Shown piece after piece: positions 7,139 through 48,987 of a DNA stretch of 64,000 bases. The notes under the pieces are model-generated. The model was given only the letters and a program-made list of their open reading frames with translations. It ran no database searches and was not told where the DNA came from. Each line of letters starts with the position of its first letter. The first letter of the stretch is position 1. The DNA comes from Terrimicrobium sacchariphilum (lineage in GTDB: Bacteria; Verrucomicrobiota; Verrucomicrobiia; Chthoniobacterales; Terrimicrobiaceae), in assembly GCF_001613545.1 (NCBI RefSeq), contig NZ_BDCO01000002.1, forward strand, positions 2,728,001-2,792,000, written 5' to 3'. A program made the translations under genes and the position numbers.

Positions 7139-8206
7139 TTAATTCAAGGTCGGATAGTCGATATAGCCGCCTGCGCCTCCGCCGTAGAATGTCTCCGAAT
7201 GGAAGGGGTTCAACGAAGCCCCTTCGGCGAAACGCCGAACAAGGTCAGGATTGGAAATGAAATCCTTGCCGAAGGCGACTGCGTCCGCTTCCCCGGCAGC
7301 GAGGACTTGCTCGGCAGTATCCAGCGTGAACTTCTCGTTCGCGATGTAAGCTCCGCCAAAATCCGCCTTGAGCGCTGGTCCGATGCGATTTTCGCCTAGT
7401 GATTCGCGGGCACAGAGAAACGCGATCTTGCGACGTCCCGTCTCGCGGGCCACATAGCCGAAGGTTTCCCTGGGATTGGAGTCGCCAATGCCATGGGAGT
7501 CCCCACGCGGAGCCAGATGCAGGCCGACCCGTCCGGGTCCCCATACGCCGACTGCCGCGTCGACTACCTCCAGCATCAGGCGAGCGCGGTTTTGGATCGA
7601 TCCGCCGTATTCATCGGTACGGATGTTGGTCTTGTCCTGGAGAAACTGATCGAGCAGATAGCCATTGGCTCCATGGATCTCGACGCCGTCGAATCCGGCT
7701 CGTTGGGCATTTTCCGCTCCCTTTCGATAGGCTTCGATGATACCGGGAATCTCGTTGAGTTCCAATGCACGCGGCGTGACGAAGGGAGTGAGCGGACGAA
7801 TGAGATTCACGTGGCCCTCCGCCGCAATGGCGCTGGGAGCTACTGGGAGATCGCCATCGAGATAGCGGGGATCGGAAATTCGGCCCACGTGCCACAACTG
7901 GCAGAGAATAATACCGCCCGCCTCGTGGACGGCCTTGGTGATGAGCTTCCAGCCCTCGACCTGCTCATCCGACCAGATACCCGGTGTGTCGGGATAGCCC
8001 ACCCCTTTGGGAGTTACCGAGGTGGCTTCCGTCAGGATAAGCCCCGCCGTAGCTCGCTGCCGGTAGTACTCCGCCATCATTGTATTTGGGATTCGCCCTT
8101 CACTCGCGCGGCACCGGGTCAAGGGTGCCATGATAATGCGATTTGAGAGGTGAAACTCACCGATCTGGACGGGTTCAAGAAGGCGAAGATTCGAAGCTGT
8201 GCTCAT
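7139..8206 (-). CDS. Old Yellow Enzyme family alkene reductase (NemA-like)
   Basis: FMN-dependent NAD(P)H oxidoreductase that reduces activated C=C bonds and often nitro esters or N-ethylmaleimide. The 355 residues show NRIIMAPLTRCRA at the N-terminus, CQLWHVGR, the FMN/substrate motif HGANGYLLDQFL, LAPRGDSHG, and C-terminal AFGKDFISNPDLV and FYGGGAGGYIDYP. This matches NemA-type members of about 365 residues. I chose the ATG at 8206 (MSTASNLRLLEPV) over an in-frame upstream start, since family members begin there. An ArsR-type regulator is encoded divergently at 8312 with a 7-bp dyad between them, so induction by an electrophile or metal signal is likely. Confidence 0.93.
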   Translation of the reverse strand: MSTASNLRLLEPVQIGEFHLSNRIIMAPLTRCRASEGRIPNTMMAEYYRQRATAGLILTEATSVTPKGVGYPDTPGIWSDEQVEGWKLITKAVHEAGGIILCQLWHVGRISDPRYLDGDLPVAPSAIAAEGHVNLIRPLTPFVTPRALELNEIPGIIEAYRKGAENAQRAGFDGVEIHGANGYLLDQFLQDKTNIRTDEYGGSIQNRARLMLEVVDAAVGVWGPGRVGLHLAPRGDSHGIGDSNPRETFGYVARETGRRKIAFLCARESLGENRIGPALKADFGGAYIANEKFTLDTAEQVLAAGEADAVAFGKDFISNPDLVRRFAEGASLNPFHSETFYGGGAGGYIDYPTLN

Positions 8207-37492: not shown

Positions 37493-37532
37493 GAGAGGAC
37501 GACCTCTCCTGAACCGCACACGGGACGGCCCG
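37493..37532 (+). promoter_or_regulatory. Guanidine-II (mini-ykkC) riboswitch
   Basis: Two small hairpins carry identical-type tetraloops: GAGAGG-ACGA-CCTCTC (37493-37508) and CGGG-ACGG-CCCG (37521-37532), joined by a 12-base linker. Both loops fit ACGR closed by GG/CC, the defining feature of the guanidine-II class. It ends 13 bases before the start of an SMR/Gdx gene, the expected target. Binding of guanidinium is expected to turn the gene on. Confidence 0.9.
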
Positions 37533-37545
37533 GATCATAAATCTT

Positions 37546-37863
37546 ATGAACTGGGTATACCTGACACTCGCGGCATTTTTTGAAATCGGCTGGGCCGTCG
37601 GCCTGAAGTATAGCGATGGGTTCCGGCGTCCGCTCGCCTCGACCATCACCTTCCTCTGCCTCCTGCTAAGCATCTCACTGCTCGGCATGGCTGCGCGCTC
37701 GCTGCCCATCGGGACGGCCTATGCGATCTGGACGGGACTCGGAGCGGCAGGGACGTTTCTTTGCGGTTCGCTATTGCTCGGTGACACACTGTCTCCGCTC
37801 AAGCTGGCCTGCATCTCCCTGATCCTGCTCGGCGTGATCGGCCTCAAGCTCGCTCCTCATTAG
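37546..37863 (+). CDS. gdx: SMR-family guanidinium exporter (Gdx/SugE type)
   Basis: 105 residues with four transmembrane helices. SMR features: MNWVYLTLAAFFEIGWAVGLKYSDGF with the essential Glu13 in helix 1, the IGTAYAIWTGLGAAGT segment and the LLLGDTLSPLKL loop. The AYAIWTG/GAAGTFL pattern is that of SugE/Gdx rather than EmrE. The guanidine-II riboswitch just upstream indicates that it exports guanidinium in exchange for protons. A broad drug-efflux role is less likely. Confidence 0.92.
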   Translation: MNWVYLTLAAFFEIGWAVGLKYSDGFRRPLASTITFLCLLLSISLLGMAARSLPIGTAYAIWTGLGAAGTFLCGSLLLGDTLSPLKLACISLILLGVIGLKLAPH

Positions 37864-38080
37864 CATGGTCCGAATACCGATGTTGAGCTGATCGGTGGAA
37901 GCGCCTCCGCGAGCGGTGGTCGCAGATTCATCCCGTCTGCCCTGAGTATCATGCGATCGCCCGTGCAACGGGCGTCTCTGCAATGCCGGAACGGTGAGCG
38001 AACCCTTGGGCTTGCCTGCCGTGCGCCTCCTGAGGGCGCCGAACCCAGCCCCGCCTATTCCGATGAGCTCGCAGTGGCGA
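37864..38080. other. Intergenic region with several GC-rich hairpins, no gene recognised
   Basis: The convergent gap between gdx and bcsC holds short stems such as GCCCGT-GCA-ACGGGC (around 37965-37979) and GCGCC-GGCGC (around 38027-38043). I checked for SRP, 6S, tmRNA and common riboswitch motifs on both strands and found none. Termination sites for both genes probably lie here. Confidence 0.4.
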
Positions 38081-40198
38081 CTATTGGAAGAGGTCGAAGC
38101 CGATCAGGTCGGTACGGAGGAGGCCCTTGCGGCGATCAAAGAAGTAGCGACCCCAGATGTAGATGCCGCCTTCGTTGTAATCCGCCGTGATGTTGTAGTT
38201 CAGACTGCCGCCGATCATCCAGTTGGGATCGATCAGGTAACCGCCCTGGAGCTGGATGAGGCCGATACCAGTGGTCGACTCCTGCGAGTCAAACTCCTGG
38301 CCGTCGTCGTCCAGCGGGAAATACGGAGAGGCGTCCTGCTTGTTGTTCTGAATACCTGCGCCGACGCTGCCGGCGGCGAGCCAGCGCTTGCCTTCCTCGG
38401 TGAGGAACTGGGCCTGGATGACACCCTGCAGGAGGTACTGCGGGCTGAAGTAACCGCCGTTACCATAGGTGAAGTGGTTCTGGTTATTATCGAACTGCTC
38501 GTAGGACAGGGCGAAGCCGATGGTGAAGTACTCGTAGCCCGGCATGTCGAGCAGGTGAGCAAAGGCGGCTGTACCGTAAAGGTGGGTGTTGTCCTCGACA
38601 TTCGTGCCGTCGATCGTGCCGTAACCTCCCTTGAGGTAGATCGTATTGTCCTCGCCGACGGAGTGGAAGAACTGGAGGTTGCCACCGGTCTCCTGCACTC
38701 GGCCCCATTGATTGCCCGTATACGGATCGACGATACCAACCCAGGAGAGCATGCTTTCCTTGATCGACTTGGAATAAATTTCACCCTGGACGTAGCCGCT
38801 GTTGCTGCGCCAGATGAGGCCAGCGCTGCCAGTCGGGCGACTCTGGAGCGGACCATTGATCGGCGTGGTACCGAGCTGAATGTACCAGCTGATCCAGTCC
38901 TGATACTCCAGGCGGACATTGAACTCCCAGAGGTCGTCTTCGCTCGTGGTCGGCTGATAATTATAGGGTGTGTAAACCGGCGGCGGAGTGCCGACCTGAG
39001 CGCCATTGGGCAGGTCGCCGCTGTTCAGGCTCAGGTGCGTGAGAGCTGCGCTGAGCATAAACTTGTTGGCCGGAAACACCTGGGCCTGAATGACTGGAAA
39101 TGTAACGACCTCCAACTGGCCCTCGCCCGCGGAACCCGACTTCGTGCGATACCCGAAGCCTGCGGCAATGCTCGGCTTGTTCAGGTTTTGCAGCACGGGG
39201 TAAACCTTTGCCCCACCTGAGTCGGCGGCGGCGCGGAAGAGGTTGGCGGACATGTAGCTCTTTGCGTCGTACGTGTAGTACATGTCGCGGAGCGGGCCAC
39301 CCGCGCCCGAGAGTGTATCGAGCTTGTCGTAGGCCTTGGTCTTGGAATATGCGGCGTAGGCGCCTTGAGCGGAAACGCGGTCAGGCGAGTTGCGATAGAG
39401 CTTCTGGAAAAGCTCGGCTGACTGCTCGTATTGCTTGGTGTAGTAAAGATCCCACGCGACAATGATCTGCTCATTGCGACTGAGGGGACGCATGGCGCCC
39501 GCCTTGTTGAAGTACTGAAGGCTGTCGTCGTACTGCTTGTTCTCGTAAGCCTCGGTACCCCGTCGGGAGTAAATGTCTCCTAGCAGCGTCTTCATCTTGG
39601 GATAGCTGTTGACGCGGAAATTGGCGATGGCTTCCGCCGAGGAGAGATCCCCTTCCCGGAATTTGGAGAGCGCCAGACCATAGGCCGCCTCGCCGGAGCT
39701 GGAGTTCCACTCGAGAGCCTGGTTGAACCACATGCCGGCGGAGGAATATTCGTTGCGGTTGAAGTACGCCCAACCGAGTTGGGTCGCCGTGGCGGAACTC
39801 CTTGTGGTGCTCGCTTCGTTGGCAAGCTGGCTGATCTGCGCCGTGGAAAGAGTCTGCGGCGTGGGCGACGTGCGTCTCACCGGAGTGGGAGTCGGCTGAG
39901 CCCTGGTCACCGGCTTTGCCACCGGGATGGCCTGCGGAATGATGTCCACCGTCTCGCCCGTCGCCTGTACCGCCGGGGCTGGCAGGTCGCTCGGGATAAA
40001 CATCGTCGGCGTCGCAGCTGCGGCCGGAGTCGGCACCGGGGTCGGAGTCGGGGCTCCGGGCCTGACGGGAACGAAAAGGGACGGCGTGCTGGTGGGAGCC
40101 GGAGCGCTGATATCCGGCGGCGGCTGCTCACCAAAAAACGGCTGAGCGACCGTCTTCTCGAATGCGAGAACGGAAATGCTCAATGCAACCAGACGCAT
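38081..40198 (-). CDS. bcsC: Cellulose synthase outer-membrane channel, BcsC-type
   Basis: About 705 residues from the ATG at 40198 (an ATG at 40252 would overlap bcsZ). Layout: signal-like N-terminus, a Pro/Thr/Ala-rich spacer (to about 120), TPR-like helical repeats (about 130-330), then a C-terminal outer-membrane beta-barrel with long aromatic/glycine strands ending DLIGFDLFQ. The BcsC barrel domain exports the cellulose chain, and the TPR part reaches the peptidoglycan. It is shorter than E. coli BcsC (about 1150), with fewer TPRs. It is last in the bcs operon, 31 bases after bcsZ. Confidence 0.86.
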   Translation of the reverse strand: MRLVALSISVLAFEKTVAQPFFGEQPPPDISAPAPTSTPSLFVPVRPGAPTPTPVPTPAAAATPTMFIPSDLPAPAVQATGETVDIIPQAIPVAKPVTRAQPTPTPVRRTSPTPQTLSTAQISQLANEASTTRSSATATQLGWAYFNRNEYSSAGMWFNQALEWNSSSGEAAYGLALSKFREGDLSSAEAIANFRVNSYPKMKTLLGDIYSRRGTEAYENKQYDDSLQYFNKAGAMRPLSRNEQIIVAWDLYYTKQYEQSAELFQKLYRNSPDRVSAQGAYAAYSKTKAYDKLDTLSGAGGPLRDMYYTYDAKSYMSANLFRAAADSGGAKVYPVLQNLNKPSIAAGFGYRTKSGSAGEGQLEVVTFPVIQAQVFPANKFMLSAALTHLSLNSGDLPNGAQVGTPPPVYTPYNYQPTTSEDDLWEFNVRLEYQDWISWYIQLGTTPINGPLQSRPTGSAGLIWRSNSGYVQGEIYSKSIKESMLSWVGIVDPYTGNQWGRVQETGGNLQFFHSVGEDNTIYLKGGYGTIDGTNVEDNTHLYGTAAFAHLLDMPGYEYFTIGFALSYEQFDNNQNHFTYGNGGYFSPQYLLQGVIQAQFLTEEGKRWLAAGSVGAGIQNNKQDASPYFPLDDDGQEFDSQESTTGIGLIQLQGGYLIDPNWMIGGSLNYNITADYNEGGIYIWGRYFFDRRKGLLRTDLIGFDLFQ

Positions 40199-40229
40199 AG
40201 CGCCTGAGGCAATAACTCTGGTGTTGTAT

Positions 40230-41351
40230 CTATTTGGTCGCAAAGGACTCACGGACTGCGATCTTGGTCAGGATGGAAAGGCTGGCAGAGAAGTACGGCT
40301 CCTCCTTCGTTACCGCAGGAAGCGCCCGAACTGTCAAGCTCCCTTTGGACGCGCAGGCGATGGTGTAGGCGGCTATTGACTTCATCCCAGGCAACGCCGG
40401 ATAGGGTCCAAAAGAATCGTCTTTCAGATTTACCGTCGCGGGCATGTGATCCGGGAGCAGAGGCTTCCAAAAGTCGGCAAAGGATACCAGCAATGGCGAG
40501 TTTTTTTGCGCCCAGGCAAGGTGGAGCGGCACACGAACGGCATTGTAGCCAAAATCGGGTGGGAACTTGGTAGATATCTGGAGCTCACTCCCCGTGGCGA
40601 AGAGCCAGTCCGGGGTGAGCTTCCATTTACCGAAAGCCCCCTTTTCGACAAGCGATCTTCCGTCGGCGGCGACCTTGGTCCAGGGCGTGCCGGGGAAGGC
40701 CGCAGCTATCTCATCCAGAGCGGGAAAAATGTAGTACGAGGGATTCAGCGTGGCTCCATCATCCGCCCAGAAACCATCGGTGCCGGGCAGGAGGATCGTC
40801 TTGCCCTCGTAGTCCTTGAGATCAAGACGGGCGAGGTCCACCAGGATCTGGGCGGCGGCCTGCTGGTACTTGTAGTCATTCCAAACCTTGGAGGCACGAA
40901 TGAGCGCCCAGGCTACGAGGAGGTCGCCGTCGCTGGCGTTGTTGGTATCTGTAACTGCGCCGCCATGGTCAGCTCCAGGCAACGGCGTGCCGTTTTGATC
41001 CTCGATCGGCTTGGCTCCGGGCTTCCACTGCCAGGCGAGGAGCTTGTCGGAGGGGCGTACCTGGAGGTTTTGCTGGGTCCAGTTCCAGATGCGGTCAAAG
41101 GCTGCACGGTCCTGATAGGCCGCGGCAATGACAAGGCCATACCCCTGCCCTTCGCTATGGCTGACATTCTCGTTGCCAGTGTCGATGACGCGGCCGTCGG
41201 CACTGATGAAGTTTCGCTGGTAGATCTCCCAGTCGGCCTTGCGCAGTCCGTAGGGGTTGAGAAAATCCAGCACGAAGGAGGTCAGCTTGAAGCCGAAGAC
41301 GAGTGCGAAAATCGCACTAAGGCTGAGGATGACCGCCCATTTCGCTCTCAT
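40230..41351 (-). CDS. bcsZ: Periplasmic endo-beta-1,4-glucanase, GH8 (BcsZ)
   Basis: 373 residues with an N-terminal signal/anchor helix (AVILSLSAIFALVFGF). GH8 features: NVSHSEGQGYGLVIA with the catalytic acid Glu, TDTNNASDGDLLVAWALIRA with the catalytic Asp, and DGFWADDGATLNPSYYIFPALD. BcsZ trims or releases cellulose during secretion. Its ATG overlaps the bcsB stop by one base and bcsC follows, the classical bcsABZC order. Confidence 0.93.
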   Translation of the reverse strand: MRAKWAVILSLSAIFALVFGFKLTSFVLDFLNPYGLRKADWEIYQRNFISADGRVIDTGNENVSHSEGQGYGLVIAAAYQDRAAFDRIWNWTQQNLQVRPSDKLLAWQWKPGAKPIEDQNGTPLPGADHGGAVTDTNNASDGDLLVAWALIRASKVWNDYKYQQAAAQILVDLARLDLKDYEGKTILLPGTDGFWADDGATLNPSYYIFPALDEIAAAFPGTPWTKVAADGRSLVEKGAFGKWKLTPDWLFATGSELQISTKFPPDFGYNAVRVPLHLAWAQKNSPLLVSFADFWKPLLPDHMPATVNLKDDSFGPYPALPGMKSIAAYTIACASKGSLTVRALPAVTKEEPYFSASLSILTKIAVRESFATK

Positions 41352-43726
41352 CAGGCATCGGATTCATTGTCTTCCGCTCCGAGCTTCTCACCGCGACGCC
41401 GCAGCACAGTGCGCACGCCGAGAGCGATCAGCAGGATGAGAATGATAAGGATCGGGGCAAAGAGCCATGGGCTCTGCTGCATGTTGGTGCCGACGCGGGT
41501 GACGACGGAGGTCGACTTGTAGATGAAGTCGGGTCCCACCTTGGCCACGGCGAGAGAATCCGGCTGGGAGTTCCAAACCGCGAGGTCGCCCGCGAGGTTG
41601 TCCCATACGCTGCGGTCCTGCAGGGCATTCATGCCGGAAAGCAGGTTGGTAGCGCTGCCCGCTGTCACGATGGTGATCGGGTAGCCGACGGCGGTGGGCG
41701 ACTCAAATTGCACGGCGACCGTATCCTCGATCATGTCGGCAGCCATCGTCATCTCGGCGGTCTTCGGAGGTTCCGGCTCCGCTTTCTCCGAAGGCGTGCC
41801 GCGGATCTTTTCCACGAACTCCTCGATCGGCGAGGTAGCGAGACGCTCCGGCTTGGGGCTGACGCTCACGAGGTAGCGCATCTTGCCCACTTGCAAAGGA
41901 GAGACCGGGGCGCGGGCGACGATATCCTCGGGGATCTGGTCGCGAGCGCCGACTACGAGGAGGTTTTTGCGGATGTTGCGGCCCGGGGGCTTGAAGCCGA
42001 CCTCGAGGCGATGGAGGAGAGCACCGGAGATCTGGGACATCTTGCCGAGAAGCGTCCAGGCGGCGGTGACGGTCTCCATATCGCGACCGGCGACAAAGAG
42101 CGCTGTTTCCGCACCGTCCGGCGAGCCAGAGTACGGGAAAGCCGTCTGGGAGAAGAGTCCCAGGCTCGGAAGGCGGCACTTGCGCAGAGCGCGCGGAAAG
42201 ACAAAGAGAGAATCGTCGTAGAGGGTGAACACCAGATTCTCCTCCTGGATCATCTGGCACTTGCCGGTCACGAGCGGCACCATTACGGGAGTGAGCTCCA
42301 CCACGTTGCGCCCAGGCTGGAAGGAGATCATCGGCAGATACAGGCGATGATCGGAGTGCATCGAGCCATTCGGGTCACGCAGGCGGATGGCCTTCTGGAA
42401 CTGGCCATTGACGAAGACGTTGAAAACCGAGTCATCACGGAACGCAGCGCCGTAGGTGAAATGCAGGCGGAGTTCGGCATTGGCGCCATCATCCTTGGAG
42501 ATGTCGCCGGGCATGTAAATCGGCACGGAATAGCCGCCTGCGTTCCAGCCGCGGATCGTCTGCTGCTTGTACCCGAGCTGGCGGAAGCTGTATATGCCCG
42601 GCATCTGCAAGGGAGCGTTGCGGATATAGGCAGGCTCCTGCGGCAGGGTGAGCTGATCGACGATGGCGTACTGCGAGTCGGGCAACGGATAGTTCACCAG
42701 ACCAAAGGCCAGCGCGGTCTGGCTGACCTCCCGCTCGTCGCGACCACTGATGATGATCATGCAATGCGTGGGATCACCCGGCAGGGCCTTGATCGCAAGG
42801 AAGCTGCCATTGACTGATCCAATCTCCGTTGCGGTGAGATAGCCGGAAAGCTCCGTCATCGTGCCGATCACGATATTGTCCATGCCAGCACGCAGGGCAT
42901 TGGCCGTCATGACGCGGAAGGGCTGATAGTTCAGCGCGAGTGCGACGCCCTGGGTCACGATGCCGCCCCAGGCGAGCTGGAGGTCAGTCATCTGGCTAGA
43001 ACCCGGGAAGCAGACGTTGAACTGGTAGGGATTCCACAGCTTCTCATCCACCCACCAGCGGAGATAGGAGAGGCGCTGAGGGACATCCCGCCACTCGGCC
43101 ACGGCAGAGAGGTAAGAGGTGTCGGGATTGATTTCGGTGAAAAGCTCAGGAGCGCCTGGGTCTTCGCACTGGTTCGTGTAGTGCTGGGCGACGATAAACT
43201 GGAGGCGGTTGAATCCGGTCTTGAGCAGTTCCAGCGGGATGCCCATCTCCACGGAGTTGAAGGGCCGGTTGCGGTCGAGCCGGTACTGGGCGACGATGAC
43301 ATCGTTCACCACCACGCGGAGGACGGAACGCTCGGTGAGCAGAGCGATCGAGTTGGTGAAATCGAGATTCAGCGTGCAGGATTTGAACTTCAGTCGAGCG
43401 CTGACGGGGACAAAGATCGTATAGATGCTCGAGGCATTGCGAAGCATGAGGGGCGAGTCGAGCGCGATGAGCTTGCGAATGGGCAGGCGCATCGTCTCCT
43501 CACGCGGAGTCGTGCGCTCGGGCAGCGGGAGCTTGGCGGCACCGGCTGGAGCCGTACGCTGAAAGACCGACGATCCCGGAGTCGGCAGCGCCAGTGCGGC
43601 AGGAGCGACCGTGGGAGCGGCGACAGCTTGCTGCTGCGCGGACATGGGCGCGATCGAACTGACCAGAACGGCCAGAGCGAGGAGCAGACTCTGCGGCAGG
43701 TGGAGGTGGCGCATCATATCTTTCAT
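41351..43726 (-). CDS. bcsB: Cellulose synthase periplasmic subunit BcsB
   Basis: 791 residues from the ATG at 43726, seven bases after bcsA; an ATG at 43795 would overlap it. Signal peptide at the N-terminus (LLLALAVLVSSIAP). Large periplasmic region with paired carbohydrate-binding and flavodoxin-like domains typical of BcsB (NDVIVAQYRLDRN, FPGSSQMTDLQLAWGG, MYMPGDISKDD-like segment, LTPVMVPLVTGKC). A single C-terminal helix (WLFAPILIILILLIALGV) anchors it beside BcsA. It guides the glucan chain through the periplasm. Confidence 0.93.
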   Translation of the reverse strand: MKDMMRHLHLPQSLLLALAVLVSSIAPMSAQQQAVAAPTVAPAALALPTPGSSVFQRTAPAGAAKLPLPERTTPREETMRLPIRKLIALDSPLMLRNASSIYTIFVPVSARLKFKSCTLNLDFTNSIALLTERSVLRVVVNDVIVAQYRLDRNRPFNSVEMGIPLELLKTGFNRLQFIVAQHYTNQCEDPGAPELFTEINPDTSYLSAVAEWRDVPQRLSYLRWWVDEKLWNPYQFNVCFPGSSQMTDLQLAWGGIVTQGVALALNYQPFRVMTANALRAGMDNIVIGTMTELSGYLTATEIGSVNGSFLAIKALPGDPTHCMIIISGRDEREVSQTALAFGLVNYPLPDSQYAIVDQLTLPQEPAYIRNAPLQMPGIYSFRQLGYKQQTIRGWNAGGYSVPIYMPGDISKDDGANAELRLHFTYGAAFRDDSVFNVFVNGQFQKAIRLRDPNGSMHSDHRLYLPMISFQPGRNVVELTPVMVPLVTGKCQMIQEENLVFTLYDDSLFVFPRALRKCRLPSLGLFSQTAFPYSGSPDGAETALFVAGRDMETVTAAWTLLGKMSQISGALLHRLEVGFKPPGRNIRKNLLVVGARDQIPEDIVARAPVSPLQVGKMRYLVSVSPKPERLATSPIEEFVEKIRGTPSEKAEPEPPKTAEMTMAADMIEDTVAVQFESPTAVGYPITIVTAGSATNLLSGMNALQDRSVWDNLAGDLAVWNSQPDSLAVAKVGPDFIYKSTSVVTRVGTNMQQSPWLFAPILIILILLIALGVRTVLRRRGEKLGAEDNESDA

Positions 43727-43733
43727 AGGGCAG

Positions 43734-46001
43734 CTAGTTCGAAGATCGGCCTCCCGCATGATAGGCGGGCGAGGGTTGGCGGACATTGGATTCAATCATC
43801 AGGTGGGCGAAGTGCTCGATCGAGAACCGGATGCCGCAGCTCATGAGGAAGAACGCGCTGCGCGTGACGCCGAGCCGCTTTTCGCGATTTGTCTGGAAGC
43901 TGATCCAACGGTCGCTGCTTCCATTGACAAGGAGCACCTTGCGCTTCAGTTCCTCCAGGTCCTTGTGCTGGAACTGGACACCGAGATTGGTCAGCGAACC
44001 CTCGCTACGGGCATTGCGCACCACGAAATGGAACGGCTCGCCGGAGAGGGCATTGTTACCCTGGACAATGAAGTCGGCCTTGGTATCCGTGCGGAAGATG
44101 GTCTCATAGGCAGCATCGATCTGGATGCTTGCGCCGCTGATGGAAAGGTCGGTGATCGTGGCGACGTACGACTTGTCCCCCACCCGTACACGGGCGGGAA
44201 TATTGGCAGGCATGCGGGGCGAGGCACGCCGCTGTCTTCGCTCGAGGAGCGCGCCCATGGCGGCGAGGAGAATGAAGACATTGAATGCCGCCCAGCACAT
44301 CGTGATCGTGGTCGGAAAGCGGTCGCCAATATTGCCCCAGACGAGCCGGCCAGCACCAAAGCCGATGGCGACAAGGTTGAGCAGGAGGAAGAGGTAAAAC
44401 GGCCTGGCCAGAGGGCTGATGAAATCCTGCGTAAGCGTTTCGCCCTTGGCCGTCACGTTGAAGGTCGGTGCGCGCGGATTCATCAGCACCTTGAGCATGG
44501 CCGGGAAAGTGTAGACCGACTGCATGAGCTCATAGAGCTCGGAGACGAAGGACCATCGGACATGGCCAAAAAGGAAGTCGGAGACCATGAACACCGCAAA
44601 CAGGTGGGGCAGACAGTACGCGGCGAAGTCGACGAAGTTTGCGTTGTAGATCTTCAGGCCGAAGAAAAGGAAGCACATCGGCGCGAGCAGGAAGACGAGA
44701 CGCGCGTAGGCGAAGAACCAGAAGAAGCCGCTGCTGAAGTAGCACAGTCGCTGCGGCAGCGTGAGGCCCGGCAGGACGAGTGGATTCTTCAGGAGGAAGA
44801 TCTGGAGCATGCCTTGCGCCCAACGGACGCGCTGCCCGATGAAGCCGCCGAGCGTCTCCGGCTGCAGGCCCGAGATCATGGGCTTGGCGATGTAGGCGCT
44901 GTTGTACCCGCGGGCATGCATGGTGAGCGCGGTCTCGGCGTCCTCAGTGATGGTGTCGCCACTGATGCCGCCAATCTCCATGATGTATTTGCGCCGGAGC
45001 ACGGCGGCAGAACCGCAGAAGAAGGCGGCATTCCAGTAATCGAGTCCCCGCTGAATGACGCGGTAGAACATCTCGTTCTCACTCGGCATCTGGGTGAAGG
45101 TCTGGAGATTTTTCTCGATCGGATCGGGATTGATGAAGAAGTGCGGCGTCTGGACGAGGAACATCTTCGGGTCCTTGATGAACCACCCGACAGTGTTTTG
45201 CAGAAAGTCCGCCGTCGGCGCATGGTCCGCATCAAGGATCATGATGAGGTCGCCATGAGTCTGCTGGAGTGCGCTGTTGATGTTACCAGCCTTGGCGTGA
45301 ACGTTCTTTTCGCGAGTGAGATAGTTGGCACCCACCTTGGCGCAGAGAGCCTGCAGCTCGACGCGGCGCTTCTTTGCCTTTTCCGCCAGGACGGGATCGG
45401 GCGAGTTGCAGCGCTGGTCGGTACCGCCATCATCCAGCAGGTAAACATGGAAGCGATCCTTTGGGTAATCCATCTGGAGCGCGGAGAGCAGCGTGACCTC
45501 AAGGAGTTCCGAATCCTCGTTGTACGACGGGATCATCACGTCGACCGTAGGGGGCTTGGCATCGGCCTCCTTGGAAAGCGGGATCGGCCTGCGGTCGAGC
45601 GGATCGATGTTGACGAAGATACTGAGGATATAGACGACGAACCCGTAGAGCTCGGCGAGATACAGGATCATCGCGCACGAGAAGCTCAGCAGATCGTTGA
45701 ATCCCAGAGTGGTGAAGGTCCGCCAGTAGAAGTAGTCAACCGAGAGAAACGCCGCGAGGATGAGGTAAAGGACGCGAATCGTCTCAATGTTGTTGAAGCG
45801 CTTTAGGGCGAGGAAGACGACGATGGCCGACACGGCCACCGCGATCTGGGTCTTCGTCGTGATACTGGCCGCGCAGGCGATGATCCCGGCGACGAAGAGA
45901 GCCGCCAGCACGAGCTGGGTGACCGGGCTCTTTTCGATGCGGCTCAGGAGCTTCTGTCCGAGGTCCTCCGGGCCGCGCTGTTGGGATTTCTTTTTCGCCA
46001 T
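43734..46001 (-). CDS. bcsA: Cellulose synthase catalytic subunit with PilZ domain
   Basis: 755-residue GT2 processive glucan synthase. Catalytic set: LDDGGTDQRC (near 190), DADHAPTADF (DxD, near 255), AAFFCGSAAV, TEDAETALTM (TED, near 352) and QRVRWAQGML (QxxRW, near 392). About eight transmembrane helices flank the GT domain. The C-terminal PilZ domain has RRQRRASPR (RxxxR) and ITDLSISGAS (DxSxxG), both c-di-GMP contacts, so cellulose production should be c-di-GMP dependent. Order: small membrane protein (27-base gap) upstream, bcsB downstream. Confidence 0.97.
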   Translation of the reverse strand: MAKKKSQQRGPEDLGQKLLSRIEKSPVTQLVLAALFVAGIIACAASITTKTQIAVAVSAIVVFLALKRFNNIETIRVLYLILAAFLSVDYFYWRTFTTLGFNDLLSFSCAMILYLAELYGFVVYILSIFVNIDPLDRRPIPLSKEADAKPPTVDVMIPSYNEDSELLEVTLLSALQMDYPKDRFHVYLLDDGGTDQRCNSPDPVLAEKAKKRRVELQALCAKVGANYLTREKNVHAKAGNINSALQQTHGDLIMILDADHAPTADFLQNTVGWFIKDPKMFLVQTPHFFINPDPIEKNLQTFTQMPSENEMFYRVIQRGLDYWNAAFFCGSAAVLRRKYIMEIGGISGDTITEDAETALTMHARGYNSAYIAKPMISGLQPETLGGFIGQRVRWAQGMLQIFLLKNPLVLPGLTLPQRLCYFSSGFFWFFAYARLVFLLAPMCFLFFGLKIYNANFVDFAAYCLPHLFAVFMVSDFLFGHVRWSFVSELYELMQSVYTFPAMLKVLMNPRAPTFNVTAKGETLTQDFISPLARPFYLFLLLNLVAIGFGAGRLVWGNIGDRFPTTITMCWAAFNVFILLAAMGALLERRQRRASPRMPANIPARVRVGDKSYVATITDLSISGASIQIDAAYETIFRTDTKADFIVQGNNALSGEPFHFVVRNARSEGSLTNLGVQFQHKDLEELKRKVLLVNGSSDRWISFQTNREKRLGVTRSAFFLMSCGIRFSIEHFAHLMIESNVRQPSPAYHAGGRSSN

Positions 46002-46028
46002 CCGCTCGTATCGACTATCCGTACCTGA

Positions 46029-46550
46029 TTACAAAACGAGCAGTCGCGACACGATCGCGCCAAGCACCGCAAAGAAAATGCACAGGGTAACCACTGCCCC
46101 GCGGGTGATCGGCTTGATCTGCGAGCCGACCTTGTCCACGCGAATGACGAGCGCATCGGTCTCCTTCTTCACCACGTCGAGCTTCTTGGTGCAGTAGTCG
46201 ATGCCCTCGTGGTAGGCCTCGATCTGCTTGACGAACTTGTCGAAGTCGATGTGCTCGAGCTTCTGCTGCATCTCCTGGGCCTGGTACGACATGCGCTCAA
46301 TGACGGGCAGCAGCGCGGTTTTCATCGCCTCGGCCAGCGACTCACTGGAGACATCCACGTTGGCGGAGATGGGTGCTGCCGATACGGGCGCAGCCCTGTA
46401 CTCTCCTGCCTCCGCAGGGGCCGCCGAACCCCGCATGGGGCCGATGAATTCAATCAGCTCCAGCAAGGCAATCGCGGGATCACCATCCTGAATGTTGTAG
46501 CGTTTCTGCCAATCGAGGATTTTGGCGCGGATTTCCGGATTTTCTATCAT
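46029..46550 (-). CDS. Small coiled-coil membrane protein of the cellulose operon
   Basis: 173 residues: a helical N-terminal part (MIENPEIRAKILDWQKRYNIQDGDPA), an Ala-rich spacer, a predicted coiled coil (residues about 90-145) and one C-terminal transmembrane helix (AVVTLCIFFAVLGAIVSRLL). Topology is therefore cytoplasmic with a tail anchor. I do not recognise the family. Its start overlaps the end of the second ParA-like gene by four bases and bcsA follows directly, so it is probably a membrane partner of the ParA-like proteins or BcsA. This is inference from position. Confidence 0.8.
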   Translation of the reverse strand: MIENPEIRAKILDWQKRYNIQDGDPAIALLELIEFIGPMRGSAAPAEAGEYRAAPVSAAPISANVDVSSESLAEAMKTALLPVIERMSYQAQEMQQKLEHIDFDKFVKQIEAYHEGIDYCTKKLDVVKKETDALVIRVDKVGSQIKPITRGAVVTLCIFFAVLGAIVSRLLVL

Positions 46551-47278
46551 GGCAAAAGGATTTTCTTGGCGTTATCGAGCTGCGCAAACCAGTTCCGGGA
46601 GAAGTCAATAAGCCGCTGGCGGTCCAGAAGGTTCACCTCCGGGCTTTCCAGCGCCTTGTCGATGGTCATCGAGCGGCCCTGCAGGACCTCGGCGAGGTGG
46701 GGTTGGAGCTTGGGCATCTCGACCTCGATGGCGCCGTTGGCAAGCAGGGTCTGCCGGGCCTGGCTATTGTCGTAGATGCGCATGGTGTTCGACATCTTCT
46801 GGTTCTTGACGACGAGCCAGTCCACGAGTTTGCCCGCGCGTTTCGCCGCCTCACCCGCCTGATGGACGGTGTCCTTGTCGGACTCGATGATGAGCACGAG
46901 CGTGACGGAAAGGCCGAGTTGCTGCTTCACATTGAGCAGGTCGGTCTCCTCCATCCAGTCGAGGAAGATGCTCTGGTGCGCACCGACACCATCGACGATG
47001 ATGAGGTCGCTGCTGTCGAAGGATTCGACGATCTGGTCGAGATTCTCGCTATGGCGGATGTCGAGGAACTTTGCGCTGGGATAAAATCGGGTGAGCGTGC
47101 TGTTGCTGTAGTCGGGATCGAACGCGGAGAAGTTCACCCCATGCATGCCGAGCCACTCGACGAGGCGCACGCAGAAGAAGGATTTGCCCACCCCGCCCTT
47201 GTCAATGGCAACCATCACCAAGCGTTTGGTGTGGTTGCGAGTAGGGATTTTGGAAAGCGCCCGGGAACCGCTCATCAA
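46547..47278 (-). CDS. ParA/BcsQ-like P-loop ATPase (second copy, intact Walker A)
   Basis: 243 residues. The deviant Walker A motif reads DKGGVGKS (residues about 28-36), with both the signature lysine and the Walker lysine. SDLIIVDGVGAH supplies a Walker B-type aspartate. The central segment SDKDTVHQAGEAAKRAGKLVDWLVVKNQK is shared almost word for word with the neighbouring gene product, so the two arose by duplication. BcsQ proteins localise cellulose synthesis at a pole in E. coli. It overlaps both neighbours by four bases. Confidence 0.85.
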   Translation of the reverse strand: MMSGSRALSKIPTRNHTKRLVMVAIDKGGVGKSFFCVRLVEWLGMHGVNFSAFDPDYSNSTLTRFYPSAKFLDIRHSENLDQIVESFDSSDLIIVDGVGAHQSIFLDWMEETDLLNVKQQLGLSVTLVLIIESDKDTVHQAGEAAKRAGKLVDWLVVKNQKMSNTMRIYDNSQARQTLLANGAIEVEMPKLQPHLAEVLQGRSMTIDKALESPEVNLLDRQRLIDFSRNWFAQLDNAKKILLP

Positions 47279-48066
47279 ACTTCCTCAGGAGCCACGCGAG
47301 GGCGCGCAGACGTTGCCGGCTTGCCCGCCTTGTGGACAGGCGCTGTCATGGCCAGCCGGGTAGGCACCAAGAGAGCCCGAGCAGACTCCAGCTGCTCGAA
47401 GAATCTCTTTTGAAATGTCCGCAACCGCTGCCTTTCAAGGAAGGGCAGCGACTCATCCAGCACGAGGGAGGAAAGTCCGCGGCTGGTCTTTTGGATGGTG
47501 GCCAGCAAGCTCCACGGCACGCGCTCCATGGTGATCTCCACCGCGCCGAGGCGCAGGAGTTCCTGCCGGGCCTTGCTGTTGTCGTAAATTTCCGAGGTTG
47601 AGCAAGTCTTGTGGTTCTTCACCACGAGCCAGTCCACCTGGTCGCCGAGGCGCTTGGCCAGCTCCCCGGCCTGGAATACGGTGTCCTTGTCCTCCTCGAT
47701 CATGAGGATCATCGTGACCCGATGCTCGGAAAAGCGGTCCTTGTTCTGGACAAAGGTCTCGTCGAGAAAATCCGGGTAATACCCCTTCAATGCGCCCAGG
47801 GCATCCCAGCCCACCACCTCGCTGTCGTCGAGCACCTCGCTCAACTCGCGCACCGCCTCGTCGGGGTTGTCGAGCGGCAGGAAGCGCGAATCCGGCAGGA
47901 AGCGAGTCAGCGTGCCATTATAGACATCGGAATCAAAAAAAGCGCACTCCTGCTCGATCTCGGCATACCAGTCGGCGAGATTCACGAGGAAAAAAGTACG
48001 TCCAACGCCTCCCTTGCAGGTGGCGCTGACTATGATCCGGCGAATGATTTGGGCGCTGGCAGGCAT
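47275..48066 (-). CDS. ParA/BcsQ-like protein with Walker A lysine changed to arginine (first copy)
   Basis: 263 residues from the ATG at 48066 (upstream in-frame sequence gives a weaker start at 48120). The P-loop reads CKGGVGRT: the signature lysine stays but the nucleotide-contacting Walker lysine is Arg. VGWDALGAL aligns with the Walker B region. It shares EDKDTV, QAGELAKRLG, VDWLVVKN, and IYDNSKARQELL with the next gene. ATP hydrolysis is probably weak or absent, so it may act as a regulatory partner of the intact copy. First gene of the cellulose operon. Confidence 0.82.
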   Translation of the reverse strand: MPASAQIIRRIIVSATCKGGVGRTFFLVNLADWYAEIEQECAFFDSDVYNGTLTRFLPDSRFLPLDNPDEAVRELSEVLDDSEVVGWDALGALKGYYPDFLDETFVQNKDRFSEHRVTMILMIEEDKDTVFQAGELAKRLGDQVDWLVVKNHKTCSTSEIYDNSKARQELLRLGAVEITMERVPWSLLATIQKTSRGLSSLVLDESLPFLERQRLRTFQKRFFEQLESARALLVPTRLAMTAPVHKAGKPATSARPRVAPEEV

Positions 48067-48116
48067 GGTTAGTTCGACGCGAGGCTCCTGATGGCTGCAA
48101 AAAGATAAGCCATGGA

Positions 48117-48133
48117 GCATTCTCGAAGAATGC
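48117..48133. promoter_or_regulatory. Dyad upstream of the cellulose operon (possible operator)
   Basis: GCATTCT-CGA-AGAATGC has perfect 7-base arms around three bases, 51 bases upstream of the first bcs-operon start codon. Position and symmetry suit a dimeric regulator; no regulator gene is nearby. Confidence 0.4.
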
Positions 48134-48285
48134 CTTCCACGACAAGGTTATTTGCGATTTTCAGAGGGCGATCTCCCATTTTTGCAGCCGATTTCGCGAG
48201 GAGTCTAAACATATCGGAAGACGCATTGCAACCGATTGCATGACTTTTTTACAGGTTTCTCCCCCCTCGCTGGGAGTCCTGACAA

Positions 48286-48987
48286 CTAATTCCCTGCGGG
48301 AGAGGTCTTGAGCAAATTCTGCGCCGTTTGCTTCTGGACAGAGAACCGACCACCCGCCACCAGTGCGTTTTTGGTATCAAGAACGACTGATTTGACCGTG
48401 CCGGAGACGGCCTGCGGGTCGGAAACGACGGGCGCGTCGAGTGTGCCATCGGCATTCAACCTCGCCACGCTGCGCCGGGGCTGCCCGAGTACGAGGCTAA
48501 AACTGCCACCAAGGACGACCTTGCCGTCGGGCTGAATGGCGAGCGCAAAGACCGGGCCATCCGTACCGGGACTGGCTACGCCGTTGCCCGCTCCGAAAGT
48601 CTGGTCCACCGTACCATCTGCCTTGTACCGTGCGATGTTATAGGTTCCAAAGGAGTTCGCCTGGGTGAAAGTCCCGCCGACGATCACACTGCCATCGGCC
48701 TGGAGAGCAAGAGCGAATACCTGGCCATTCACTCCAGCTTCAAAACTGTTGGCAAAAGCCATGTCGAGAGTTCCATCCGGGTTCAGGCGGGCGAGGCTGC
48801 CGCGGGGCTGGCCGTTGACGGAGTTGAACCGGCCGCCAATGATGACCTTGCCATCGGGCTGGATCGCGATGGCATTCACCTCGCCTTGGACCCCTGGCTC
48901 GGTGGTGAATGCCGAGCGATTCTCCACGCTCGATTGGGCAAAAACAGAGGAACTCAGGGCCAGAAGGAGCACGAGCAACAGGGGCAT
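48286..48987 (-). CDS. Secreted delta-60 repeat protein
   Basis: 233 residues from the ATG at 48987, where a good signal peptide begins ([16 protein letters not shown]); the frame is open upstream but lacks export features. It carries delta-60 repeats of the form [38 protein letters not shown] and [19 protein letters not shown], each followed by an ARLNxDGTLD-type segment. These repeats form short beta-propeller-like or beta-strand units in exported proteins. The function is unknown. Length is short for the family, with about four repeats. Confidence 0.85.

Follow-up and report, generated by a model that had tools for sequence, protein, structure and literature searches.

In the window analysed here, a stretch of 64,000 nucleotides from Terrimicrobium sacchariphilum (contig NZ_BDCO01000002.1, positions 2,728,001 to 2,792,000), the cellulose synthase gene bcsA is preceded by two genes for ATPases of the ParA/MinD superfamily, termed A and B below, and by a gene for a small protein with a hydrophobic C-terminal helix, termed C. 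An A-B-C-bcsA block of this kind is present in 11 of the 213 genomes of the order, the window included, and these belong to two families. With modest confidence, we lean towards regarding A-B-C as an accessory module that was domesticated from DNA-mobilization elements, is made up of a TraL-like ATPase and a small membrane protein, and now serves cellulose synthase. Sequence comparison documents the ancestry of the module, its fixation in the operon, the constraint acting on it and a tail that is specific to A. That a ParA/MinD-type helper is encoded in a cellulose operon is known; what is new is that the helper comes from a different source, and this ancestry is more interesting than the arginine in the P-loop of A that first drew attention to the locus.

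Aligned over 227 columns, A and B share 41% identity (E 4e-57), hence the blocks common to both reflect real homology, and an earlier, sequence-only reading of the window was right to call them tandem duplicates. It had also taken the pair for BcsQ, and this assignment is contradicted by profiles and phylogeny alike. The Pfam model PF06564 (CBP_BcsQ) has two matches in the genome at E<=0.001, neither of which is A or B, and the NCBIfam model TIGR03371 (cellulose_yhjQ) finds 12 places at E<=10, A and B not included, none of which passes the cut-off of that model; nor did an hmmscan of the two proteins at E<=0.1 bring up BcsQ. With the TraL model PRK13886, B outranks all other matches in the genome (6.6e-8, positions 4-240 of 241) and A is hit in just two weak pieces (E 0.5 and 0.9), the scores of 35.2 bits for B and 21.3 bits for A both falling short of the NCBI cut-off of 360; in the NCBIfam scan, B is similar to TraL over its full length (8e-9). 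In hhalign comparisons with six groups of TraL-like ATPases, all taken from loci without bcs genes, A and B reach 96.8-100% over 210-230 columns. The values against four BcsQ sequences are 19.8% (A) and 6.6% (B), over 45 and 39 columns that cover the P-loop only, and those against Escherichia coli MinD are 94% (A) and 89% (B) over 41 and 39 columns. In the tree, A and B form one group (99/98) on the side of the TraL-like rows, and BcsQ and MinD split off from the rest with 100/98 (92/63 in a tree with one BcsQ). A clade of A, B and BcsQ was rejected by the approximately unbiased (AU) test (p 0.0077), in a tree whose four BcsQ rows are all enterobacterial; acidobacterial BcsQ (PMC9693552) lies outside this sample, and a BcsQ-like match from Photobacterium (L177) was left out of the BcsQ set as the motif is absent from it. 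Four sequences on long branches (T_L051, T_L054, T_L045 and cyano_L066) were omitted from the main tree and are all contained in the tree with one BcsQ. By these comparisons A and B are not BcsQ and belong with the TraL-like ATPases in a wide sense.

No third copy was found in the genome: with B as query, only A and B matched below E 0.2 (next E 0.23). The ParA signature lysine (the first K of KGGVGR) is present in all eleven A and all eleven B, and A of the window keeps both aspartate positions aligned with MinD switch I and Walker B. An AlphaFold model predicts a ParA/MinD-type fold for A (predicted local distance difference test, pLDDT, 86), for which the best fold match is ParF (Z 17.5, root mean square deviation 2.6 A, 192 aligned), followed by FlhG (Z 17.1) and MipZ (Z 16.2); a BcsQ chain is absent from the 50 entries listed, which carries no weight either way. 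Membership of A in the KGGVGR-motif family NCBIfam NF047398 was rejected (19.5 bits against a cut-off of 90). PADLOC gave no defence-system match at E<=0.01, and a PHROGs search gave weak P-loop or unknown matches only.

When B was searched against 387 genomes of the phylum, relatives turned up in 30, window included. Nine loci make up the nearest group by profile score; eight belong to the same order and one to the same class. In all nine the ATPase is followed by a small C-like protein and then by a protein with the motif GDTGSGKT. Both GDTGSGKT proteins scanned match coupling-protein families (TrwB_AAD_bind, 4.5e-12 and 4.7e-12), a TrwC relaxase is encoded on the other side of the ATPase in 3 of 3 loci scanned (L037, L148, L150), and a gene for a phage-type integrase is found close to the ATPase in L037. 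Judged by their gene content, the loci of the nearest TraL-like relatives are mobilization loci. An alignment of the eleven C sequences matches the nine small proteins with an hhalign probability of 98.3% and a score of 88, compared with scores of at most 18.7 for 60 column shuffles and of 14.6 for the reversed alignment, and the likeness resides chiefly in an N-terminal WQ-x-x-x-x-I-x-D-x-DP segment and in the C-terminal hydrophobic helix. On this evidence C is homologous to the small membrane protein encoded behind verrucomicrobial TraL-like ATPases. No similarity was found between C and plasmid TraM (hhalign 0.9%, two sequences) or a second partner group (0.7%, five sequences); the TraM models PF11657 and PRK13895 did not match, and no Pfam or NCBIfam family was detected for C at E<=0.1. 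The structure model of C, with long helices and a hydrophobic C-terminal end, is of low confidence (pLDDT 68, predicted template modelling score 0.27).

In one genus (L058, 4445 end; L059; L060) C is longer, with an apparent internal repeat around (A/S)xALSxAVRxxLQPxxDRL. Verrucomicrobiota also hold further, deeply separate groups of TraL-like ATPases (L041, L049, L050, L046-L048, L052-L053), in one of which (L053) a TrwC relaxase (PF08751, 7.2e-58) follows the ATPase.

A narrow-pattern scan of 84,980 species genomes retrieved 76 stretches, nine of which are relatives, and each of these nine is an A-B-C-bcsA locus; among the 11 genomes of the order, G434 (L143) lies outside these nine, and L061 and L036 of G313 represent one contig. 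C and then bcsA follow the pair in 11 of 11 cases and bcsB, bcsZ and bcsC come after these in nine; in the remaining two (L058, L064) the contig stops in or just past bcsA. The earlier proposals of a conserved membrane partner and of a module that is a standing part of the cellulose operon are thus borne out. A, B and C are moreover under purifying selection. Between the three species of the window's genus, the ratio of nonsynonymous to synonymous changes (dN/dS) of A is 0.025, 0.020 and 0.020, at dS values of 0.34 to 1.13, the upper of which are near saturation. These ratios are among the lowest in the operon (other genes 0.025-0.074), compared with 0.031-0.046 for B and 0.049-0.063 for C.

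All seven genes of the operon lie on the minus strand, in the order A, B, C, bcsA-bcsB-bcsZ-bcsC. Their open reading frames (ORFs) are found where the sequence-only reading had placed them, and its cellulose assignments are backed by the family models given here:

47275 to 48066, minus strand: A, TraL-like ATPase, upstream copy with KGGVGRT and a C-terminal RPRVAPEEV tail
47995 to 48015, minus strand: Walker A motif of A, K-G-G-V-G-R-T, residues 18-24 from the ATG at 48066
47998 to 48000, minus strand: arginine codon CGT in Walker A of A
47275 to 47304, minus strand: C-terminal tail of A, RPRVAPEEV and stop
46547 to 47275, minus strand: B, TraL-like ATPase, downstream copy with KGGVGKS
46029 to 46550, minus strand: C, small helical protein with an N-terminal WQ[KR]RYxIxDxDP segment and a C-terminal hydrophobic helix
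43734 to 46001, minus strand: bcsA, UDP-forming cellulose synthase with PilZ domain (TIGR03030, 890 bits, cut-off 699; PF07238, 3.4e-10)
41351 to 43795, start approximate, minus strand: bcsB (PF03170, 4.7e-79)
40230 to 41351, minus strand: bcsZ, GH8 endoglucanase (PF01270, 3.7e-56)
38081 to 40252, minus strand: bcsC, outer-membrane export protein with tetratricopeptide repeats (PF05420, 2.2e-54)

A comprises 263 amino acids if it starts at the ATG at 48066, which is probably the case because the L056 orthologue has an in-frame stop directly upstream of that ATG. The 4-base overlaps described earlier for the ATPase end apply to B and C (ATGA); A shares 1 base with B (TGATG) if B starts at the ATG at 47275, and 4 bases only with a TTG start. 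Judging by the sequence around the start of B, the last codons of A (GAGGAAG) could double as its ribosome-binding site. Promoter and terminator scans of positions 37800-48600 yielded nothing above shuffled expectation. Beyond the end of the operon, a Guanidine-II riboswitch (Rfam RF01068, 32.6 bits, gathering 32) is predicted at 37493-37532 on the plus strand, directly 5' of an ORF at 37546-37863 (plus strand) for a small multidrug-resistance-type membrane protein, which we take to be a guanidinium exporter.

In the best tree the A sequences (11 rows, 100/98) and the B sequences (11 rows, 83/78) are sister groups, and each repeats the same two-family split, which makes the duplication older than this split. 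The tree with one BcsQ recovers the same A clade (100/98), and B as one side with just 51/23; a single A/B duplication is therefore the best tree and not proven. According to the tree, A evolved about twice as fast as B in one family, with stem lengths of 0.73 versus 0.36 in the window's genus, 0.91 versus 0.40 for L062 and 0.59 versus 0.32 in a further case, and at an equal rate in the other family (0.38 versus 0.40). The two copies also differ at their ends. Every one of the eleven A ends in RPR[VI]xP behind a variable, partly Pro/Ala-rich linker, a tail that all 11 B lack, as do all 25 TraL-like proteins compared from other loci. The terminal EEV of A may be kept for the ribosome-binding site of B; the RPR[VI]xP part lies further upstream. 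In the AlphaFold model the tail has a pLDDT of about 51, as expected for a flexible segment.

That one copy has lost the P-loop lysine (A KGGVGRT, B KGGVGKS) had been read correctly from the sequence. An arginine at this position is restricted to A of the window, L056 and L057, that is, to three of three species of one genus; lysine is present in eight of the eleven A (seven with KGGVGKS, including L143, and one with KGGVGKT, L062) and in all eleven B. A comparison of Walker A motifs across relatives, as suggested earlier, thus shows the arginine to be common to one genus, and the idea that it defines a pair of an active and a regulatory ATPase fails, as both copies have lysine in 8 of 11 pairs. 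The implied contrast with BcsQ does not hold either: the lysine is also lost in the four enterobacterial BcsQ, which have RGG[VTI]GTT with threonine at the site, and a BcsQ motif without it is likewise found in Table 1 of PMC9178275. The arginine codon is CGT in all three species and differs from both lysine codons in all three bases; this codon distance, together with the low dN/dS of A, indicates that the arginine form is old on this scale and that the protein is in use. A recent point mutation, raised earlier as the alternative, does not fit three species with CGT each and dS of 0.34 to about 1.1, though the arginine does have a single origin. Constraint on A as a whole does not prove selection on the arginine itself.

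The lysine is also replaced, by alanine (KGGVGAS), in one of the 25 TraL-like proteins, the single-copy ATPase of L051 (oriented 7433-8200), whose gene is followed by an overlapping ORF of 250 amino acids. The best experimental analogue of the arginine form is ParA2 K124R of Vibrio cholerae, which has no ATPase activity and binds ATP below wild type, shows DNA affinity like the wild type and forms immobile foci (PMC10287910).

By analogy with E. coli, the module would do a BcsRQ-like job at BcsA. There, an ATP sandwich dimer of BcsQ with two BcsR (BcsR2Q2) is bound asymmetrically to the cytosolic face of BcsA, in contact with its PilZ domain (PMC11470070), and BcsRQ is required for secretion (PMC7439463, PMC5727187). 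In the ATP state, A and B would form a sandwich dimer of the MinD/BcsQ type, probably an A-B heterodimer, and the N-terminal segment of C, the part in common with the mobilization partners, might hold this dimer at the inner membrane. The flexible RPR[VI]xP tail of A could dock it on the neighbouring machine, most simply BcsA, where the docked dimer, like BcsR2Q2 in E. coli, would activate or stabilise the synthase or bring it to its place. The A of the window's genus probably binds ATP without hydrolysis, and only B would cycle there, A being a static, scaffold-like half. An A-B heterodimer anchored by C would represent a built-in asymmetric version of the BcsRQ arrangement. A wider and rather doubtful extension is that a TraL-like ATPase and its partner constitute a machine-independent membrane loader. 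It would load or gate the coupling-protein hexamer in mobile elements and would have been re-used to load or gate a polysaccharide synthase, after duplication into a catalytic B and an anchoring A; in one genus the latter would eventually have given up hydrolysis.

Several observations weigh against a domesticated mobilization module that serves cellulose synthase. The cut-off of 360 bits is far off and PRK13886 at E<=10 also matches in 14 of 14 control genomes and is thus unspecific, so that this model alone cannot make A and B TraL. An RP4 deletion that includes traL left the type IV secretion system working (PMC11045733), which speaks against the membrane-loader extension as well. Lysine is kept in 8 of 11 A, which places a dead subunit outside the basic mechanism. 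In addition, BcsA-like matches at E<=1e-60 occur in 15 of the 213 genomes of the order; two are distant (36 and 44%), and of the other 13 genomes two, G464 and G456, are without the pair. The BcsA of G464 is 76% identical to that of the window and the closest outside the genus, and that of G456 about 50-53%. Both have bcsA-bcsB-bcsZ-bcsC (L154 and L153), the pair was not found genome-wide at E<=1e-20, and no A, B or C was detected near bcsA at E<=0.05; both bcsA genes are close to a contig end, and the contigs extend just about 0.3 and 1.6 kb beyond them on the upstream side. Of the 387 genomes of the phylum, 6 pass the BcsA cut-off, namely the window, G313 and four others (L098-L101), whose bcs genes are without adjoining A, B or C; one weak short match to A (E 0.002) lies off the operon. 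Going by G464 and G456, cellulose operons in general do not need the module. With the pair in 11 of 213 genomes and the operons of these two genomes and of L098-L101 without it, the module is an addition specific to this lineage, and it has probably been lost at least once.

Among other explanations, it is very unlikely that A and B are divergent, duplicated BcsQ with C in place of BcsR. The pair does stand ahead of bcsA like bcsQ in E. coli, though C lies between B and bcsA, and superfamily, fold type and kind of partner gene agree; neither BcsQ model matches, the profile similarity of 6.6-20% is confined to the P-loop, the AU test, with four enterobacterial BcsQ, rejects the common clade, and C is homologous to a protein of mobilization loci. 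That a mobile element inserted by chance before bcsA and left A, B and C behind, without a role in cellulose synthesis, is barely credible. It would account for their mobilization-locus ancestry, but the three genes keep one order ahead of bcsA in 11 genomes from two families, overlap at their start and stop codons, evolve with a dN/dS of 0.02-0.06 and have no adjoining relaxase or coupling gene among the ORFs of the window. A neutral history of the arginine deserves serious consideration, even if we would sooner bet against it. According to this explanation A serves as a structural subunit in every one of the 11 genomes, or can do without its ATPase, and a single genus fixed the change by drift. 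This agrees with the single origin, with the eight A that keep lysine, with the rate of A, about twice that of B in that family, and with loss of the lysine in the L051 protein and the four enterobacterial BcsQ. It agrees less well with an A for which constraint has since been no weaker than for the other operon genes and with an arginine kept in three of three species, although purifying selection on the whole protein alone is no sign of selection on this residue. Finally, the pair might place the synthase at a pole or division site via nucleoid or membrane gradients, with C as adaptor, which we regard as possible rather than probable. Such positioning is a general role of the ParA/MinD family, BcsQ is polar in E. 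coli (PMC5727187), and the foci of the arginine form would be static, like those of ParA2 K124R (PMC10287910); the location of the relatives of the pair in mobilization loci speaks against it, and the evidence gathered includes neither a DNA-binding feature nor an amphipathic tail of the MinD type. Positioning is compatible with a domesticated module and an equally legitimate reading of the same data.

If A-B-C is indeed a domesticated mobilization module, cellulose operons recruited helpers of the ParA/MinD type on two or more occasions, from different superfamily branches (BcsQ and the TraL-like module), and such an ATPase would be a recurrent need of synthase-dependent secretion. A poorly understood pair from conjugation, TraL and its membrane partner, would be tied to a machine with a simply measured output (calcofluor binding), and one genus would provide a naturally occurring test case of an ATPase half deficient in hydrolysis. 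Among the titles and abstracts of the matches listed, a TraL-like module in a cellulose operon is not described, and the papers listed on TraL/RP4 or mobilization ATPases hold no usable account of the function of TraL-like ATPases, save PMC11045733.

Of the known systems, the mobilization block (e.g. L148, L150, L037) shares with the cellulose module a homologous ATPase and membrane partner, the gene order, overlapping or abutting genes and a place directly ahead of an inner-membrane machine. It differs in having one ATPase instead of two, a coupling protein instead of BcsA and no RPR[VI]xP tail, and its partner has about 115-135 amino acids, whereas C in the cellulose operon has at least 156 and, unlike the mobilization partner, an added middle region with YHEGIDYCTKKLDVVKK. 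With TraL/TraM of the RP4 type (PRK13886, PRK13895; PF11657) the module shares the full-length similarity of B to TraL and the succession of ATPase and small protein (L065, L158), but B scores 35 bits against a cut-off of 360 and C is not detectably like plasmid TraM. BcsR-BcsQ of E. coli similarly combines a ParA/MinD-superfamily ATPase gene ahead of bcsA with a small partner, and the P-loop lysine is lost in both systems, to threonine in BcsQ and to arginine in A of the window; the ATPase, however, comes from another branch of the superfamily and is encoded by one gene instead of two. BcsR is a small protein that is not known to have a membrane helix such as that of C. The arginine form of A, finally, corresponds in residue and substitution to ParA2 K124R of V. 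cholerae and to P1 ParA K122R, yet these are laboratory mutants (PMC10287910), whereas A carries the arginine naturally throughout a genus and beside an intact paralogue.

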